Shown: positions 42,791-51,937 of the stretch, in pieces
How the letters are laid out: the number at the start of each line of letters is the position of its first letter
Position numbering within the stretch: position 1 is the stretch's first letter
DNA from: Coriobacteriia bacterium
Lineage (GTDB): Bacteria; Actinomycetota; Coriobacteriia; Anaerosomatales; SLCP01
Assembly: GCA_007121015.1 (NCBI GenBank)
Contig: SKMN01000025.1
Span: 1-64,000, forward strand
Length of the DNA: 64,000 nucleotides
Direction of reading: 5' to 3'
The notes under the pieces: model-generated
Seen by the model: only the letters and a program-made list of their open reading frames with translations
Told to the model about the DNA's origin: nothing
The model's database searches: none
Translations under genes and position numbers: made by a program

Positions 42791-42858
42791 GACAGCTAGA
42801 TGGACCGGCGCGCCTGGCGCCGGAACCTGGATGCCGTGCCGGCGGTAAGGGGTTGCTC

Positions 42859-43884
42859 ATGTTCTTCAGGATCATGGAGAAGGACCGGATCGGCGACCTG
42901 GTCGCGGGTCTGTCGACGGAATATGAGGTGATCGGTCCGGTAGCCAAGGGTCACAGCTTCACCTTCGCTACCATCGACGACGCAGACCAGTTGAGGCTCG
43001 ACTACGACACGACCATCCTGCCGCCGAAGAAGCTGTTCTTCCCGCCCGAGGACCAGATGATGAGGTTTCGGGTCGTCGACAACGAGGTGCTCGACGACGA
43101 CGTGTTCGCCGGACCGCGTGTCGTGATCGGTCTCCATCCGTGCGACATCAACGCGTTGCTCCTCATGGATAACGTCTTCCTCGGCGAGTACGAGGATCCC
43201 TACTACAAGGCGCGCCGGGATTCGACGCTGCTCATCGGCTTGTCGTGCGAACCGTCCGACACGTGTTTCTGCAACGCGTGGAACACCGATGAGGCCCACT
43301 GGGGTTTCGACCTCTTCCTGACCGACCTCGGTGACGCCTATTTCGTCTCGGTACGCTCGGCCAAGGGTGCTGAGCTGCTCGACCGCAGCGTCGAGACCCG
43401 TGTCGCCGCACACGACGACACCGTGCGCTTCCAGGAGCGGACGCGGGCCTTCAAGCGCTCCTTCCCCGAGCGCCTCGATACCGACCAGCTTCCGGTCCTG
43501 CTCGACGCGAAGTTCGACGACCCGCTGTGGGACGAACTCGGGGAGCGATGTCTTTCATGTGGCGCATGCTCGATGGTGTGCCCGACGTGCTACTGCTTCG
43601 ACGTCCGCGACGACCTGGCGCCCGATCAGCGCACCGGTGTGCGCACCCGGCGCTGGGACTCGTGCCAGTTCAGCGAGTTCGCGGCGGTCGCCCACGGCGA
43701 GAACTTCCGCGCCTCGCGGGGTTCCCGGGTCAAGTACCGCTACTACCACAAGCAGTGGGGATACCTATCCAAGTTCGAGCGCGTTCTGTGCGTCGGGTGC
43801 GGACGGTGTGCACGGGCGTGTCTCGCCGGCATCACCCCTCGCGACGTCGTGGCCGCGCTGGTCGAAGGTGAGGAGATACGATGA
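42859..43884 (+). CDS. hydB: Group 3b-type hydrogenase Fe-S subunit beta (HydB-like)
   Basis: The 341-aa iron-sulfur protein corresponds to the beta subunit of cytosolic NAD(P)-linked sulfhydrogenases. It has two C-terminal [4Fe-4S] motifs, CLSCGACSMVCPTCYC (about 228-243) and CVGCGRCARAC, and the family stretch GLHPCDINALLLMD. It passes electrons between the hydrogenase module and the flavin subunit encoded next. ATG 42859 is 6 nt after AAGGGG; the ORF-track TTG is 2 codons earlier. It overlaps hydG by ATGA. Confidence 0.88.
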   Translation: MFFRIMEKDRIGDLVAGLSTEYEVIGPVAKGHSFTFATIDDADQLRLDYDTTILPPKKLFFPPEDQMMRFRVVDNEVLDDDVFAGPRVVIGLHPCDINALLLMDNVFLGEYEDPYYKARRDSTLLIGLSCEPSDTCFCNAWNTDEAHWGFDLFLTDLGDAYFVSVRSAKGAELLDRSVETRVAAHDDTVRFQERTRAFKRSFPERLDTDQLPVLLDAKFDDPLWDELGERCLSCGACSMVCPTCYCFDVRDDLAPDQRTGVRTRRWDSCQFSEFAAVAHGENFRASRGSRVKYRYYHKQWGYLSKFERVLCVGCGRCARACLAGITPRDVVAALVEGEEIR

Positions 43885-44738
43885 GCGCGTCGCAGACGTA
43901 CCGCGAGCTCGCGCACAACCCCTACCGTCCGTGGCCAGCCCGGATCACCTCGATCATCGACCTGACCGAGAAGGAGAAGCTCTTCGAGATCCGCCTCATC
44001 GACGACCGGGTGCGGGAGGCGTTCGACTTTCACTCCGGACAGTTCGTCGAGGTCTCGATCTTCGGGGTGGGGGAGGCGCCGATATCGATCTCCTCGGCCC
44101 CGAGCAAGCAAGGCTTCGTCGAGCTGTGCGTGCGGAAGACCGGTGACGTGACGCGCGTGCTGCACGAGAAGCAGTGCGGTGACATCATCGGCATCCGCGG
44201 ACCGTTCGGGAGGGGGTTCCCTTTCGAGGAGATGCGCGGGCACGACATCTTGCTCGTGGCCGGCGGGCTCGGCATCGCGCCGCTCAAGAGCCTCATCAAC
44301 CACATCCACGACGACCGTCACGAGTTCGGTAAGGTCACCATCTTGTATGGTGCGAAGAACCCCTCCGAGATCCTCTTCCGCCAGCAGTTCGAGATGTGGA
44401 AGCACCGGGAGGACTTCGATCTCGTGATGACCGTGGACGAACCGGACGACACGTGGAAGTTCGAGGTCGGGCGCGTCACCAAGCTCTTCGAGACGGTCGA
44501 CGTCGATCCCGCAGTCACGTACGGGGCGATCTGCGGCCCGCCGGTCATGTATCGGTTCGTCATCGACGAGATGCGCAAGAAGGGCGTCAACGTCGATCGC
44601 ATCTACGTGAGCTTCGAGCGCCGCATGAAGTGCGGCATCGGCAAGTGCGGCCACTGCGGCGTCGGACACCAGTACGCGTGCATCGACGGCCCGGTGTTCA
44701 ACTACTGGGAAGCCATGAACCTCCGGGAGGCGATCTAG
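43881..44738 (+). CDS. hydG: Group 3b-type hydrogenase diaphorase subunit gamma (HydG-like)
   Basis: The 285-aa FAD/NAD(P)-binding reductase of the ferredoxin-NADP reductase superfamily has the FAD site around APISISSAPSK, the pyridine-nucleotide loop VAGGLGIAPLKSL, and a C-terminal [2Fe-2S] motif KCGIGKCGHCGVG...C. It is the site of NAD(P)H exchange in the four-subunit hydrogenase. This gene is unrelated to the HydG maturase of [FeFe] enzymes. Its stop abuts hydD directly. Confidence 0.88.
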   Translation: MSASQTYRELAHNPYRPWPARITSIIDLTEKEKLFEIRLIDDRVREAFDFHSGQFVEVSIFGVGEAPISISSAPSKQGFVELCVRKTGDVTRVLHEKQCGDIIGIRGPFGRGFPFEEMRGHDILLVAGGLGIAPLKSLINHIHDDRHEFGKVTILYGAKNPSEILFRQQFEMWKHREDFDLVMTVDEPDDTWKFEVGRVTKLFETVDVDPAVTYGAICGPPVMYRFVIDEMRKKGVNVDRIYVSFERRMKCGIGKCGHCGVGHQYACIDGPVFNYWEAMNLREAI

Positions 44739-45488
44739 ATGGCGCCGCGTGTCGTGGTCGTAGGCCTGGCGAGCGATTTCGGTTGTCAGGTGCAGATGAC
44801 CAATATCGAGGACCACCTGCTCGACGTCCTCGGCGTGATCGACCTCGCGTACTGGCAGCTCGCGTCCTCCGGGCACATGCCGGAAGATTACGATGTCGCG
44901 ATCGTCGAAGGGGCTGTGACCATCGAGGAGCACGTGCGGACGCTGGAGCGTCTGAGGCGGACCGCCTCAGCGGTGATCGCGATCGGCTCGTGCGCCGTCA
45001 CCGGCGGTATTCCAGCTCTCGCGAGCGCGGGAGACCTCGAGGCCCGGTACGGCTGCGTGTACGGAGCCGAGGGGGCTGCGGTCGCGTGCGGGCGCATCTC
45101 GCCGAAGCCGGTGCACGCCGTCATCGACGTCGACTACCGGGTCCCGGGGTGTCCCATCGACACCGACGAGTTTGTCCGCGTACTCTCGCGGGCGCTCCTC
45201 GGCCTGGCAGACCGCATCGACGACGAGCCCCTGTGCGCCGTCTGCAAGATGAAGGAGAACGTATGCTTCTTCGAGCGCGACGAGGTCTGCCTCGGCCCGA
45301 TCACGCGGAGCGGGTGCGGCGCGCGCTGTGTGGGGTTCGGTAGGCCGTGCACCGCGTGCCGGGGGCTCTCGCCCGAGGCGAACGTCGACTCGCTCGCCGA
45401 ACTCCTCGGGGAGCGCGGAGTGGCTCGCGCCGACCTCGAACACAGGATCTCTCTCTACAACACCATCGAGGAGGTACCAGGCCGATGA
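44739..45488 (+). CDS. hydD: Group 3b-type hydrogenase small subunit delta (HydD-like), with Asp replacing a cluster Cys
   Basis: The 249-aa small subunit matches the HydD family by VAIVEGAVTIEEHVRTL, IAIGSCAVTGG, VPGCPID, and the C-terminal cluster region CAVCKMKENVCFF...GCGARCVGFGRPCTACRG. In the N-terminal proximal-cluster motif, family members such as Pyrococcus furiosus HydD have (as I recall) LTSCYGCQ; here it reads LASDFGCQ, so the first Cys is Asp13 and only Cys16 remains. The remaining proximal ligands are present. The cluster may therefore be Asp-ligated. The start follows the hydG stop without a gap. Confidence 0.88.
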   Translation: MAPRVVVVGLASDFGCQVQMTNIEDHLLDVLGVIDLAYWQLASSGHMPEDYDVAIVEGAVTIEEHVRTLERLRRTASAVIAIGSCAVTGGIPALASAGDLEARYGCVYGAEGAAVACGRISPKPVHAVIDVDYRVPGCPIDTDEFVRVLSRALLGLADRIDDEPLCAVCKMKENVCFFERDEVCLGPITRSGCGARCVGFGRPCTACRGLSPEANVDSLAELLGERGVARADLEHRISLYNTIEEVPGR

Positions 45489-46750
45489 GCACTACGCTGA
45501 CGGTCGAGCACGTCGCACGCATCGAGGGCCACGGGACGATCACGGTCGGCGTTTCCGACGGGAAGGTCCGCGCGATCGGTATGGACGTGGTCGAGCCTGC
45601 CCGGTTCTTCGAATCGATGGTCGCCGGTAGGCGTATCGATGAGGTCCCGCTCGTCACGAGCCGCATCTGCGGCATCTGCTCTCCCAATCATGCGATCACC
45701 GCGATCAAGGCACTCGAGGCCGCCCTTGGTGTGGAGGTGAACGAGCGCACGGTGTTGCTGCGTAAGCTGCTCGTCTACGGGTCGTACCTGCAGAACCACG
45801 CGACGCACCTCTACCTCTTCGCCGCGCCGGACTACGTCAACCTGCCGAGCGTGTTCCCGCTCGCCGAGACGCACCCCGACATCGTCGAGCGGGCGCTGCG
45901 CATCAAGAAGTTCGGCAACGAGCTGACGACGCTCGTGGGCGGTCGGCCGGTGCACCCGGTGACCGCGGTCATCGGCGGGTTCACGAGCGAGCCGTCCGAG
46001 GCCCGCCTGGAGGCGTTCGCCATCGCGCTCGGCGACATCATCGAGGACGCGGTCGCCACGGCCGAGTTGTTCGCGGCGTTCACCGAGTACGAGTACGAGA
46101 CCGCCGGCGAGATGCTGGCACTGCGCGACGATACCGATTACGGCATCTATGACGGCGATATAGCCTCGCTCGACGCCGGATGGAGGCGACCGGTGTCCGA
46201 GTACCGCTCGGTCATCGAGGAGACCGTCGTGGGTCACAGCAACGCGAAGCACTCGACGGTCGGCGGCAGGACGTTCATGGTGGGCGCCCTGCCCCGGGTG
46301 AACCTCTCGGCCGACCTGCTCATGCCGCGGGCACGAGCAGCGCTCGACGCCGCGGGCCTTACACCGCCGTCGCGTAACACGTTCATGAACAACGTCTGTC
46401 AGGCGATCGAGTTGGTCGATGCCGCCGAGCGCTGTCGCGACTACATCGAGCGGCTCCTGCGCGAAGGCGGGTCGGCACAGGTCGCACCGTTCGCCGTCGC
46501 CGGGGGCGCCGGTGCGGGAGCGACGGAGGCGCCGAGGGGGACCCTCTACCACAGCTACGAGGTCGATGGTGACGGTATCGTCCGTGCCGCCGACATCATC
46601 ACCCCGACCGCCCAGAACCTCGCGAACCTCGAGGCCGACATGAGAAGGTTCGCTCCGACCGTGGTCGACCTGCCGCAACCCGAGTTCCTGGCCGCGATCG
46701 AGCGTCTCGTGCGCGCGTACGACCCATGTTTGTCGTGCTCGGTGCACTGA
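45485..46750 (+). CDS. hydA: Group 3b-type [NiFe] hydrogenase large subunit alpha (HydA-like), lacking a C-terminal tail
   Basis: The 421-aa catalytic subunit has L1 (VARIEGHGTI), the N-terminal Ni ligands in TSRICGICSPNHA, and the C-terminal ligands in YDPCLSCSVH. The last residue is His421 of that motif, so nothing remains for a maturation protease to cut; homologues usually carry a short tail. The start is ATG 45485 behind GAGGAGGT, overlapping the hydD stop (ATGA); the ORF-track start is 46 codons too early. It is the last gene of hydBGDA and is followed after 85 nt by rnfC. Confidence 0.9.
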   Translation: MSTTLTVEHVARIEGHGTITVGVSDGKVRAIGMDVVEPARFFESMVAGRRIDEVPLVTSRICGICSPNHAITAIKALEAALGVEVNERTVLLRKLLVYGSYLQNHATHLYLFAAPDYVNLPSVFPLAETHPDIVERALRIKKFGNELTTLVGGRPVHPVTAVIGGFTSEPSEARLEAFAIALGDIIEDAVATAELFAAFTEYEYETAGEMLALRDDTDYGIYDGDIASLDAGWRRPVSEYRSVIEETVVGHSNAKHSTVGGRTFMVGALPRVNLSADLLMPRARAALDAAGLTPPSRNTFMNNVCQAIELVDAAERCRDYIERLLREGGSAQVAPFAVAGGAGAGATEAPRGTLYHSYEVDGDGIVRAADIITPTAQNLANLEADMRRFAPTVVDLPQPEFLAAIERLVRAYDPCLSCSVH

Positions 46751-46835: not shown

Positions 46836-48134
46836 GTGTCTCCTCGCCGGTTCAGGGGCGGTATCCATCCGCCCGACCACAAAGAAAAGACAAGAGGGGG
46901 CTCATCGGCGCGGATCGGCGTTCCGGAGCGGATCGTGCTGCCGATGGTCCAACACCTCGGTACGCCGTGCGTTCCTGCCGTCGAGGCCGGTGACGTCGTC
47001 GAGCGCGGCCAAGTCGTCGGTCGTGCCGAAGCGATGGTCAGCGCCCCGATCCACTCCCCGGTCGCAGGGACGGTCATCGCCGTCACCGAGACGCTGACGG
47101 CGACGGGCGCGCGCGTCCCTGCCGTGGAGATCGCCCCCGAAGCGGAACAGGACTGGGACCGGTTCGTCCCCCTCGAGGACGCGGAGGTCGTGCATACCGT
47201 TCGGGCGGCAGGCATCGTCGGTCTCGGCGGAGCGGCGTTCCCCTCGGCGGTCAAGCTCACGCCGCCACAAGACATGCCGGTCTCGACGGTGATCCTCAAC
47301 GGGTGCGAGTGCGAGCCGTACCTGACGTGCGATCACCGGACGATGCTCGAGCGCCCGGGGAGGGTTGTCGCGGGGGGACGGATCATCGCCGAGGCCGTCG
47401 GCGCGTCACGGACGGTGATCGGCATCGAGGCCAACAAGTTCGACGCCGTCGACACCATGCGGTCGGCTGCGGGCGGATCGGCCGAGGTATGCGTCCTGCC
47501 GGCGCACTACCCGCAGGGCGCCGAGAAGCAACTCATCAGGTCCGTCCTCGGTATCGAAGTACCGCACGGCAAGCTGCCGGCGGCGACCGGGGCACTCGTG
47601 CACAACGTCTCGACGGCCGCTGCCATCGCGGACGCGGTCGAGGACCGGCGACCGCTCATGGAGCGTGTCATGACGGTGACCGGCCACGTCGCCCGTCCCG
47701 GGAACTACCTCGTGCCGATAGGGACGCTCGTTTCGGACGTCCTTGCGGCGGCGGGCGGGACCGTCGGCGAGGTCGCGCGGGTGATAGTGGGAGGACCGAT
47801 GACAGGGATGCCGCTCGCGGGGCTCGACGTACCTGTCGTGAAGGCGACCGGTGGGATCGTCGTGTTCGCTCAGGGTGAGGTCGCACCCGCGGTCCTCGGC
47901 GACCAGCCCTGCATCCGGTGCGCACGCTGTGTGGCGGCGTGCCCGATGTGGCTCGAGCCTTACGTGATAGGCATCCATGCGAACCGTCGCGACTGGGACG
48001 CGACCGAGCGGTACCACGCGATCGACTGCATCGAGTGCGGCTGTTGCAGCTACGTGTGCCCGACCAGCCGTCCGCTCGTGCAGCTCATCAGGCGGGCGAA
48101 GCATATGCTGATGGAGAGGGGCTCGAAGCTGTGA
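46836..48134 (+). CDS. rnfC: Rnf complex subunit C
   Basis: This 432-aa peripheral NADH-binding subunit of the ion-translocating ferredoxin:NAD+ oxidoreductase has the N-terminal RnfC barrel (FRGGIHPPDHK), a nucleotide/FMN region GIVGLGGAAFPS and NGCECEPYLTCDHR, and two C-terminal [4Fe-4S] motifs, CIRCARCVAACP and CIECGCCSYVCP. GTG 46836 lies 8 nt after TGGAGGG. It is the first of six contiguous rnf genes in the order C-D-G-E-A-B, and its stop overlaps rnfD (GTGA). Confidence 0.93.
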   Translation: MSPRRFRGGIHPPDHKEKTRGGSSARIGVPERIVLPMVQHLGTPCVPAVEAGDVVERGQVVGRAEAMVSAPIHSPVAGTVIAVTETLTATGARVPAVEIAPEAEQDWDRFVPLEDAEVVHTVRAAGIVGLGGAAFPSAVKLTPPQDMPVSTVILNGCECEPYLTCDHRTMLERPGRVVAGGRIIAEAVGASRTVIGIEANKFDAVDTMRSAAGGSAEVCVLPAHYPQGAEKQLIRSVLGIEVPHGKLPAATGALVHNVSTAAAIADAVEDRRPLMERVMTVTGHVARPGNYLVPIGTLVSDVLAAAGGTVGEVARVIVGGPMTGMPLAGLDVPVVKATGGIVVFAQGEVAPAVLGDQPCIRCARCVAACPMWLEPYVIGIHANRRDWDATERYHAIDCIECGCCSYVCPTSRPLVQLIRRAKHMLMERGSKL

Positions 48135-49141
48135 GCGAGACGGCCCCGACGTCGCTGCCGTGGGTCGCCGCGGCACCCCACATCGCGTCGAAGCGCAGCT
48201 GCAGGGGCATCATGCTCTGGGTCGTCGTCGCGCTGCTCCCGACGACCGGGTGGGCGGTATGGAACATGGGGTCGGTCGCCGCCTGGCTCCTCGCGACATG
48301 CATCGGCTCGGCGATGGGCACCGAGTGGCTGTGGAACCGCATCGCCCGCCGTCCGCAGACCCTGGGCGATGGCAGCGCGCTCGTCACCGGCCTGCTGCTC
48401 GCGCTCACTCTTCCGCCCCGCACGCCGCTGTGGATGGCTGTTGCCGGCGGTATCGTCGCGATAGCGCTCGCGAAGATGCTCTTCGGCGGATTGGGGTGGA
48501 ACCTCTTCAACCCGGCGCTCGTGGGGCGCGCGTTCATCTCCATCTCGTGGATCGGCGTGCTCGCCGGCGTGCGTCCGTTCCCGGGGGGCTGGTACAACGC
48601 ACTGGACGTTCCGGGCACCGGCGACCTCGACGCGATCACCGGTGCCACCCGGCTCGCTATCGCAGCGGCGGATCGGGCGGCCGACGGTGCATACGGTGTC
48701 GACCTCACGCACTACTACGCTCCACTGTTCTTCAGGAACCTCGAGGGCTCTCTCGGGGAGGTGTCGGCCGCGCTCCTGTTGTTCGGCGGCGCGCTCCTCA
48801 TAGTCAAGGGCATCATCGATTGGCGCATCCCGGTCGGCTATGTCGGCACTGTGGCGGTGCTCTCGTGGGCGTTCGGGTCCGACCCGGTGTTCAACGTCCT
48901 GGCCGGCGGACTGTTGCTCGGCGCGTTCTTCATGGCTACCGATTACGTCACCTCGCCGATGACCCCGCTCGGCCGCCTGCTGTTCGGGTGCGGGTGCGGC
49001 CTGTTCAACGTCGTGGGCCGGTTCTACGGTCCGATGCCGGAGTCCACGACCTTCGCGATCCTGTTCATGAACGGCCTCGTGCCGCTCATCGACCGCTGGT
49101 TGAGTCCTCGAACGTACGGATGGGGGCGCGGCGATGCGTAG
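48131..49141 (+). CDS. rnfD: Rnf complex subunit D
   Basis: The 336-aa membrane subunit has many hydrophobic helices. The flavinylation region reads AITGATRLAIA, with the Thr that receives covalent FMN in the family. The NPALVGRAFISISW segment is conserved. The start is GTG 48131, coupled to rnfC by GTGA. The ORF track opens the frame 71 codons too early, inside rnfC. It overlaps rnfG by 8 nt. Confidence 0.93.
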   Translation: MSETAPTSLPWVAAAPHIASKRSCRGIMLWVVVALLPTTGWAVWNMGSVAAWLLATCIGSAMGTEWLWNRIARRPQTLGDGSALVTGLLLALTLPPRTPLWMAVAGGIVAIALAKMLFGGLGWNLFNPALVGRAFISISWIGVLAGVRPFPGGWYNALDVPGTGDLDAITGATRLAIAAADRAADGAYGVDLTHYYAPLFFRNLEGSLGEVSAALLLFGGALLIVKGIIDWRIPVGYVGTVAVLSWAFGSDPVFNVLAGGLLLGAFFMATDYVTSPMTPLGRLLFGCGCGLFNVVGRFYGPMPESTTFAILFMNGLVPLIDRWLSPRTYGWGRGDA

Positions 49142-49736
49142 GGCCGAGTCGACGCCGCTCAACATGGTGACCGCCGTACTCGTGACATGCGCCGTCGCGG
49201 CGACCTCGCTCACGCTCACCTACGAGGTCACCCGCGAGCGGATCCTCGCTCAAGAGCGTGCGGCGGAGGAACGGGCGTTGCGCGCGGTGATACCAGCGGG
49301 CGAGGAGTTCGAGATCGTGCCCGACGTGCTCGACGAGGCACGTGAGGCGGCAGGCGACACGCCGGTCGGCGCCGTCTACCGCGTCACGGGGGTCGACGGC
49401 ACCTTCATCGGGTGGGGTGTGCGGGCTGCACCGCGCGGATACGCCGGTCCTATCCAGCTGGTTGTGGGATTGGATAGAGCCGGGATAGTGTCAGGTGTCA
49501 GTATCATCACGATGAACGAGACTCCGGGCCTCGGCACGAAGATCGTGACCGAAGAAGGATGGATCGAGCAGTTCGTCGGCTGGGACGGGTCCGACATCGC
49601 GGCTTCGGCCCGCGATTTCGACGCGATCGCTGGTGCGACCAAGTCGGCGGTGGGGGTCCGTGAAGGCGTCGTCGCGGCCGGGCGGGTGTACGAGGACGTT
49701 CTCATGTCCGAGATGGGGGAGGTGGATGTGCCGTGA
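49134..49736 (+). CDS. rnfG: Rnf complex subunit G
   Basis: The 200-aa protein has one N-terminal transmembrane helix and an exported FMN-binding domain. The flavin attachment motif is DAIAGATKSAVG near residue 165, and GPIQLVVGLD and NETPGLGTKI are family stretches. It relays electrons on the outer face of the Rnf complex. The start overlaps rnfD, and the stop overlaps rnfE (GTGA). Confidence 0.93.
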   Translation: MRRAESTPLNMVTAVLVTCAVAATSLTLTYEVTRERILAQERAAEERALRAVIPAGEEFEIVPDVLDEAREAAGDTPVGAVYRVTGVDGTFIGWGVRAAPRGYAGPIQLVVGLDRAGIVSGVSIITMNETPGLGTKIVTEEGWIEQFVGWDGSDIAASARDFDAIAGATKSAVGVREGVVAAGRVYEDVLMSEMGEVDVP

Positions 49737-50392
49737 GAGAGTGGATAGCCGTCTTCAAGCGCGGGATCGCCATCGACAATCCGCTCACCGTGCTGATGAT
49801 CGGGCTCTGCGCGACGCTCGCGGTCTCGACCAAGGTCGAAGGCGCGCTCTTCATGGGCCTCGCCGTCATCTTCGTCCTCGGCATGTCGAGCGTGATCGTC
49901 TCGTCCATCCGACACCTCGTGCCCGAGAAGGTGCGCATCCCCGTGTTCATCGTCATCATCGCGTCGTTCGTGACCATCGTCGACCTGACGATGAAGGCGT
50001 TCGTTCCCGACGTCTACGACTTCCTCGGCGTGTGGATCCCGCTCATCGTGGTCAACTGCATGATCCTCGGTCGGGCCGAGGCGTTCTCGTACCACAACCC
50101 GGTCCGTCTCGCCGTGGCCGACGGGCTCGGGATGGGGAGCGGGTTCGCGATCGTCATCGTCGTACTCGCGTTCATCCGCGAGCTCTTCGGCAGTGGCGAG
50201 ATCGTCTTCCTTGGCGCGAACCTGCTCAGCCTCCCCGACGGCTACCCGGCTCCGGGCATCCTCGTGCTCTTTCCCGGCGCGTTCATCGTGTTCGGGTTCA
50301 TCGTCGCGCTCACCGCCTGGTACAACCGGCGGACCACCGGTCGCACGGTCGAGACATCGGCCCACTGCACGATCGAGGAAGGGGGGCGCTAG
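49733..50392 (+). CDS. rnfE: Rnf complex subunit E
   Basis: The 219-aa integral membrane protein has six expected helices and the family stretches NPLTVLMIGLCATLAVS, VNCMILGRAEAF and REL(F)GSGE. It pairs with RnfA around a membrane [2Fe-2S] site bound by conserved Cys residues, which are present here in GLCATL and NCMILG. The start is GTG 49733, coupled to rnfG. Confidence 0.93.
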   Translation: MREWIAVFKRGIAIDNPLTVLMIGLCATLAVSTKVEGALFMGLAVIFVLGMSSVIVSSIRHLVPEKVRIPVFIVIIASFVTIVDLTMKAFVPDVYDFLGVWIPLIVVNCMILGRAEAFSYHNPVRLAVADGLGMGSGFAIVIVVLAFIRELFGSGEIVFLGANLLSLPDGYPAPGILVLFPGAFIVFGFIVALTAWYNRRTTGRTVETSAHCTIEEGGR

Positions 50393-50394
50393 CC

Positions 50395-51015
50395 GTGGAG
50401 ACGCTCCAGCACTTCGCGCTCCTGCTCGTGGGTGGCGCGCTCGTGAACAACATCCTGCTCACCCGCTTCATCGGCCTCTGTCCGTTCTTCGGTGTCTCCG
50501 GGGCGATGGAGACGAGCGTAGGGATGGCCGGGGCGGTGGTGTTCGTCATGACGCTGGCCACCACGGCCACGTGGGTCTTCTGGAACGTCCTGCTCGAGCC
50601 GCTCGGTGTAGGAGAGTTCCTCTACATTCCCGCGTTCATCCTCGTGATCGCGGCACTCGTCCAGTTCGTCGAGATGTACCTGCGTAAGTCGAGTCCGGCG
50701 CTCTACCGTTCGCTCGGCATCTTCCTGCCGCTCATCACCACCAACTGCGCCGTGCTCGCTACGGCGACGGAGTCGGTGCGTCCCGGGTTCTTCATGATGG
50801 GGATCGACTACGGTTTCGGGTTCGGGGAGGCGCTCGTCTACACGATCGGTGTGGCGATCGGCTTCGGGATAGCGCTCATCAGTTTCGCGGCCCTACGCGA
50901 GAGGCTCGAGGTGGCACCCGTGCCAGAGGCGATGAAGGGCATACCGATGGCGTTCATCACCGCCGGACTCCTCTCCTTCGGGTACGTGGGGCTCGGCGGG
51001 TTGTTCGGATTGTGA
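50395..51015 (+). CDS. rnfA: Rnf complex subunit A
   Basis: The 206-aa integral membrane protein is homologous to RnfE. It has NNILLTRFIGLCPFFGVS and ITTNCAVLA, the paired cysteine sites of the intramembrane cluster, and the ending GLLSFGYVGL. GTG 50395 lies 2 nt after the rnfE stop, with GAGGAAGGGGGG upstream. The ORF-track start 254 codons earlier is inside rnfE in another frame and is wrong. Confidence 0.93.
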   Translation: METLQHFALLLVGGALVNNILLTRFIGLCPFFGVSGAMETSVGMAGAVVFVMTLATTATWVFWNVLLEPLGVGEFLYIPAFILVIAALVQFVEMYLRKSSPALYRSLGIFLPLITTNCAVLATATESVRPGFFMMGIDYGFGFGEALVYTIGVAIGFGIALISFAALRERLEVAPVPEAMKGIPMAFITAGLLSFGYVGLGGLFGL

Positions 51016-51028
51016 GAGGAGCTGCGGC

Positions 51029-51937
51029 GTGGATCTTCTGCTCATCGTGAAAGCAGCTGTGGCGCTCGGTGCGATCGGGCTGATTGCGTCGGCCCTGCTC
51101 GCGGCTGCGTCGCGGAGGTTCCACGTCGAGGCCGACCCTCGCGTCGAGCGGGTATTGAGCGTGCTTCCCGGGGCGAACTGCGGTGCGTGCGGTAATCCAT
51201 CATGTTTCTCGGCAGCCGAGGCGCTCGCCGAGGGCACGATGGAGGTGACCGGGTGCACGGCAGGTGGCCAGCGCGTTGCAGACGCGGTGGCCGATGTGCT
51301 GGGAGTCGAGAAGTGCGAGATCGCCGCAGTGGTCTCTCTCAGGCATTGTGGCGCCGGCTCCTCTGCGAAACGGCGGTACGAGTACAGCGGGATACTCTCG
51401 TGTGCTGCCGTGTCACGCCTGGCCGGCGGCGATCTGGAGTGTCCGGCAGGTTGCTTCGGTTATGGCGACTGCGTCGCGTCGTGCCCGTTCGATGCGATCT
51501 CCCTCGACGAGCGCGGGTTGCCCGTGATCGACCTCGGCCTGTGCACGGGGTGTGAAGCGTGCGTGAAGGCGTGTCCGCGCGGGCACATCCACCTGCTCGA
51601 GATGGTTCCCGAGGACGCTCCGATCGCCGTTCGCTGCAACTCGCACGACCGCCCCAAGATCCGCAAGGCCTACTGTCCGGTGTGCTGCATCGCGTGCAAG
51701 AAGTGCGAGAAGGCATGCCCGTCCGACGCCATCCACGTCATCGACCTGCTCGCCGTAGTCGACTACGAGCGGTGCACCGGGTGCGGTGCGTGCGTCGCGG
51801 TGTGTCCGCAGCAGTGTATCGACCTGCACGGGAGGGCTCTCGCAGAGCCATCGCACGAGCTCGACGGCGCGGGTGCGCAGGCGCCGGAGTTCGAGCCCGG
51901 GGAGCCCGGTGCATCCGACGGCGGTGGTCGCTCGTGA
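51029..51937 (+). CDS. rnfB: Rnf complex subunit B
   Basis: This 302-aa ferredoxin-oxidising subunit has one N-terminal transmembrane helix, a [4Fe-4S] motif of the GANCGACGNPSCF type, and further clusters in CPAGCFGYGDCVASCP, CTGCEACVKACP, CPVCCIACKKCEKACP and CTGCGACVAVCP. It accepts electrons from reduced ferredoxin; the ferredoxin gene at 35.9 kb is a candidate donor. GTG 51029 follows GAGAGGAG. The stop is coupled to the next gene by GTGA. Confidence 0.93.
   Translation: MDLLLIVKAAVALGAIGLIASALLAAASRRFHVEADPRVERVLSVLPGANCGACGNPSCFSAAEALAEGTMEVTGCTAGGQRVADAVADVLGVEKCEIAAVVSLRHCGAGSSAKRRYEYSGILSCAAVSRLAGGDLECPAGCFGYGDCVASCPFDAISLDERGLPVIDLGLCTGCEACVKACPRGHIHLLEMVPEDAPIAVRCNSHDRPKIRKAYCPVCCIACKKCEKACPSDAIHVIDLLAVVDYERCTGCGACVAVCPQQCIDLHGRALAEPSHELDGAGAQAPEFEPGEPGASDGGGRS

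Follow-up and report, generated by a model that had tools for sequence, protein, structure and literature searches.

An aspartate substituting for the first cysteine of the proximal cluster recurs in group 3b-like [NiFe]-hydrogenases and is a probable iron ligand

How does a [NiFe]-hydrogenase hold its proximal iron–sulfur cluster when the first of the four ligating cysteines is replaced by an acid? The question is raised by a hydD gene (44739–45488, plus strand) in the window, a 64,000-nucleotide stretch of DNA from an anaerobic Coriobacteriia bacterium. Direct translation of codons 10–16 of this gene (44766–44786, plus strand) gives the proximal-cluster motif LASDFGC, in which codon 13 (GAT, 44775–44777, plus strand) encodes an aspartate at the position of the first proximal-cluster cysteine. 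HydD residues 10–17 thus read LASDFGCQ, and the aligned segment of the delta subunit of P. furiosus sulfhydrogenase I (SHI; 9nez) reads LTSCYGCQ. The second, third and fourth proximal ligands are present as Cys16 (44784–44786), Cys85 (44991–44993) and Cys138 (45150–45152), all on the plus strand, and the C-terminal two-cluster domain has its full set of eight cysteines. A preliminary description of the locus had noted the aspartate, the retention of the other three ligands and the P. furiosus motif; each of these points holds.

The gene is part of a tight, intact operon of group 3b type, as judged from open reading frames and domain models. On the plus strand, hydB (42853–43884) encodes the iron–sulfur (beta) subunit (Pfam Fer4_22 and the sulfhydrogenase HydB/ShyB models, E = 5.8e-80), hydG (43881–44738) the FAD/NAD-binding (gamma) subunit (NAD_binding_1, FAD_binding_6 and DHODB_Fe-S_bind; PRK08345/ShyC/HydG models), hydD the small (delta) subunit of 249 residues (Pfam Oxidored_q6; NCBIfam HydD, E = 1.6e-46) and hydA (45485–46750) the [NiFe] large (alpha) subunit of 421 residues (Pfam NiFeSe_Hases; HydA model, E = 1.8e-86). 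HydA carries the nickel-binding motifs RICGIC at residue 60 and DPCLSC at residue 413, which match RxCGxC and DPCxxC. In a sequence search, the best PDB match of HydD is the SHI delta subunit (9nez_A, E = 3.8e-43), and a comparison of its AlphaFold model with the PDB again returns 9nez_A as the best match (E = 2.6e-18, TM 0.82). The model comprises HydD alone, without metal or partner, and has a moderate mean pLDDT of 76; its fold agrees with the assignment, and it gives no cluster geometry.

The hydBGDA gene set with a Fer4_22 beta subunit and a FAD/NAD/DHODB-type gamma subunit is that of group 3b, and the small subunit has the group 3b features of being nearest to SHI delta and of carrying a C-terminal two-cluster domain. 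HydD scores 158.6 bits against the NCBIfam SHI/SHII equivalog cut-off of 500, which belongs to narrow, P. furiosus-type models and does not define group 3b. The cut-off of the group 3a FrhG model is not reached (62.8–65.8 bits against 245.5). The hallmark of group 1h, CxxD with Asp at the second ligand, is absent: HydD has DxxC, whereas HofK has CDGD. By HydDB class, a cultured OPB41 member has a 3b enzyme (PMC9686372). Gene set and sequence motifs support the assignment of HydD as small subunit to a group 3b-like, NAD(P)-linked [NiFe]-hydrogenase (sulfhydrogenase); the preliminary description had placed it there too, and the operon and the match to SHI delta agree with that placement. The exception is the four-Cys proximal cluster, which HydD lacks owing to Asp13. 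A single acid is found there in 57 of 312 group 3b-like relatives, and a four-Cys proximal cluster is therefore no strict hallmark of group 3b.

Among 60 related genomes surveyed, we scored the 31 close HydD relatives with a readable N-terminus, which come from many families of the same order. All 31 carry Asp13, encoded by GAC or GAT, and all keep the other three ligands, at identities of 54–87%. Judging from a published description (PMC9686372), the order is probably Anaerosomatales/OPB41. In the sister order, which belongs to the same class, the HydD orthologue (L051–L058) is 48–55% identical and reads LASCFGCQ. The gene order tpr-ndk-hydBGDA is common to both orders, which points to one orthologous locus in which Cys turned to Asp; the path from TGY to GAY takes two base changes. 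Fixed differences between the HydD proteins of the two orders are confined to sites 13, 46 and 51. Several genomes of the Asp13 order also encode a second HydD-like small subunit (L032–L041), 36–39% identical and mostly with the all-Cys motif ASCEGCQ.

A survey of homologues for Asp at this site had been proposed in the preliminary description; besides fixation within the order, it reveals independent origins elsewhere and a recurrent CxxD/E motif in group 3b. Across 312 distinct HydD sequences, an uneven sample in which the Asp13 order is represented deeply and whose counts are not natural frequencies, the four proximal ligands read CCCC in 255, DCCC in 37, CDCC in 19 and CECC in one, with no other combination. 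Variation is confined to the first two positions, is always to Asp or Glu, and never affects both in one HydD: the position of Cys16 is Cys in 292 sequences and otherwise Asp or Glu, and those of Cys85 and Cys138 are Cys in all 312. A scan of named genomes from many phyla gave 80 loci, of which 77 have both cysteines, two have Asp at the first position and one has Asp at the second. Both Asp-first loci of that scan belong to Thermoleophilia and are 87–94% identical to a Thermoleophilia-type locus of our survey (L093); the Asp-second locus belongs to candidate division FCPU426. Further surveys found Asp at the first position in five Thermoleophilia-type genomes whose site was read and, within the phylum sampled around Moorella, in a small class both of whose hydrogenase-bearing genomes carry it. 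Sampling of the phyla around Hermodarchaeota, a deltaproteobacterium, Moorella and FCPU426 yielded Asp at the second position, and one actinobacterial genome (L063, G186) has Glu there. The group 3b-like loci with CxxD/E, the arrangement also seen in FrhG and group 1h, are L063 (Glu), L147/L239, L280, L291, L295, L321–L325, L329, L333, L334, L336–L338, L344, L360, L361 and L365. In L093, an open reading frame resembling orotate phosphoribosyltransferase (1504–2058) lies between hydD and hydA.

To place these replacements on a phylogeny, we used a HydD tree of 76 rows from which both variable ligand columns were left out. Its well-supported branches cannot be reconciled with fewer than three changes for Asp at the first position or fewer than four for Asp at the second. 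A concatenated HydD and HydA tree requires three changes for the first position, as does the HydD tree. On the evidence of these sequence trees, Asp at the first position arose separately at least three times.

We consider it likely that in this cytoplasmic group 3b-type HydD the proximal [4Fe-4S] cluster is held by Cys16, Cys85, Cys138 and the carboxylate of Asp13, the latter having taken over from the first cysteine in the stem lineage of the order. Following that replacement, the Asp13 carboxylate would bind iron to give a 3Cys:1Asp cluster, which would remain a functional [4Fe-4S] cluster. The site changes only to carboxylates and only singly, while the other ligands and the HydA motifs stay constant, which argues that Asp13 still binds iron. 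Had the ligand role been lost, the site would be expected to drift to residues such as Ser, Ala or Gly; none of these is seen, a pattern that favours a carboxylate still serving as ligand over loss of the cluster. Asp13 is thus probably a working alternative way to hold the proximal cluster. The 3Cys:1Asp cluster, also favored by the preliminary description, is the best reading of the acid-only replacement pattern, with precedents in FrhG and group 1h. Its effect may be to tune the redox potential modestly, or to gate electrons passing between the NiFe site and HydG/NAD(P)H. In P. furiosus ferredoxin, the Asp-ligated cluster has a potential of about −350 mV and that of the D14C variant is −397 mV (PMC8097209); given this small shift, a modest rise in potential or a gating effect is a sober guess. 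A role of Asp13 in O2 tolerance is unsupported by the findings here. We found neither structure nor spectroscopy of any hydrogenase with Asp at the first position, nor a structural precedent for a carboxylate there.

The preliminary description had allowed that another cysteine might supply the fourth ligand. Within HydD, no compensating cysteine is fixed in the Asp clade; the only extra one to reach 30% is at alignment position 115 (9 of 30). The foremost candidate lies across the subunit interface, in HydA: Cys305 (NNVCQAIE; 46397–46399, plus strand) covaries with Asp13 and would, as the true ligand, leave Asp13 a spectator. It is present in 25 of 35 Asp-first partners (21 of 29 in the Asp13 order and all four from Thermoleophilia), in none of 241 partners of Cys-Cys enzymes and in none of 18 partners of CxxD enzymes. 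No other HydA residue is both absent from all 259 partners outside the Asp-first type and in the majority in two separate Asp-first lineages. However, the residue at 305 is Ala, Ser or Leu in the other 10 of the 35 Asp-first enzymes while Asp13 is unchanged throughout, so that Cys305 is no universal fourth ligand. No HydA change is common to all Asp-first lineages, Cys305 being found in two of the three, and a phylogenetic test of its association with Asp13, which had only three independent pairs and two gains to draw on, was not significant. We therefore regard ligation by Cys305 or another residue in place of Asp13 as quite improbable, although Cys305 could join in ligation in some members. 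A more elaborate version would be that group 3b repeatedly swapped one CxxC proximal ligand for a carboxylate and that, in Asp-first enzymes, HydA Cys305 is so near that it could serve as a second-choice ligand from across the interface, depending on redox state or O2, and so form a ligand-exchange switch at the cluster beside the NiFe site; this we rate as a long shot.

It is also conceivable, if unlikely, that Asp13 is no permanent ligand and that the proximal cluster is a [3Fe-4S] cluster, or a labile [4Fe-4S] cluster with water or hydroxide on the fourth iron, the two interconverting with redox state or O2. Only three cysteines remain, and the Asp-ligated irons of some ferredoxins are easily lost. 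Yet Ser, Ala, Gly and the like would then be expected at the site, where Asp and Glu alone occur, and Asp60 of FrhG shows clear ligand density. By the textbook count HydD is one ligand short, and the proximal cluster might have been lost or the enzyme be decaying, with Asp13 a product of drift. Against this, Asp13 is strictly conserved in relatives 54–87% identical, the other 11 cluster cysteines are fixed in the clade, and the operon and catalytic motifs are intact, the latter being unbroken in HydA of all Asp-type enzymes. The strict conservation in particular is a strong argument against decay, which we consider very unlikely. Chance is ruled out by the fact that every non-Cys residue at both CxxC positions of the 312 distinct homologues is Asp or Glu, despite the two-base distance from TGY. 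That codon 13 reflects an error of sequencing or assembly, for which we found no supporting point, has practically no probability: Asp is present in all 31 relatives from the order and also in two other lineages.

Directly downstream of hydA lies rnfCDGEAB (46836–51937), an arrangement shared by 9 of 13 other genomes of the order that were inspected. No rnf was found near hydBGDA in the remaining four (L226–L229) or in the sister order. A dependence of Asp13 on neighbouring rnf is rejected, as those four genomes also carry Asp13. The proximity of rnfCDGEAB to hydBGDA suggests the balancing of H2, NAD(P)H and ferredoxin from one gene cluster. The cluster beside the NiFe site strongly affects the bias and O2 tolerance of a hydrogenase. 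Proximal carboxylate ligation was known from single cases and at the second cysteine; here the carboxylate substitution appears as a recurrent, clade-fixed feature of a widespread NAD(P)-linked class, and also at a new ligand position. Sequence surveys that require four cysteines would misjudge such enzymes.

How does the proposed site compare with known systems? A search of the open literature, with most subscription papers outside its scope, found no report of an Asp ligand in group 3b at either position. This agrees with the preliminary description, which had overlooked a closer precedent in group 3a: FrhG of M. marburgensis, where Asp60 is a proximal ligand with clear cryo-EM density (PMC3591093, PMC3930138). 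FrhG (PDB 3zfs/4ci0) has a 3Cys:1Asp proximal cluster like that proposed for HydD, but its Asp takes the place of the second cysteine (SGCTGDAMSL) rather than the first, and its electron acceptor and subunits differ; in other FrhG chains (6qgr, 9r51) the cysteine is retained. For group 1h, to which the preliminary description had drawn a parallel, the proximal cluster is described as bound by one Asp in addition to three Cys (PMC8498564). The parallel holds for this ligand set, as seen in HofK (PDB 5aa5), but not for the position, because the Asp of HofK, a group 1 enzyme, replaces the second cysteine (LGCDGDSVS). The Asp positions in both FrhG and HofK were taken from the PDB chain sequences. 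P. furiosus ferredoxin has in Asp14 a natural Asp ligand to a [4Fe-4S] cluster, although it is a small ferredoxin and no hydrogenase. P. furiosus soluble hydrogenase I (group 3b, PDB 9nez/9e15) shares the four-subunit HydBGDA plan and the C-terminal two-cluster domain, but has an all-Cys proximal motif. The sister-order HydD is encoded at the same tpr-ndk-hydBGDA locus and is Cys-type; with such natural sisters, the role of Asp13 as a ligand can be tested by a one-residue swap in either direction.
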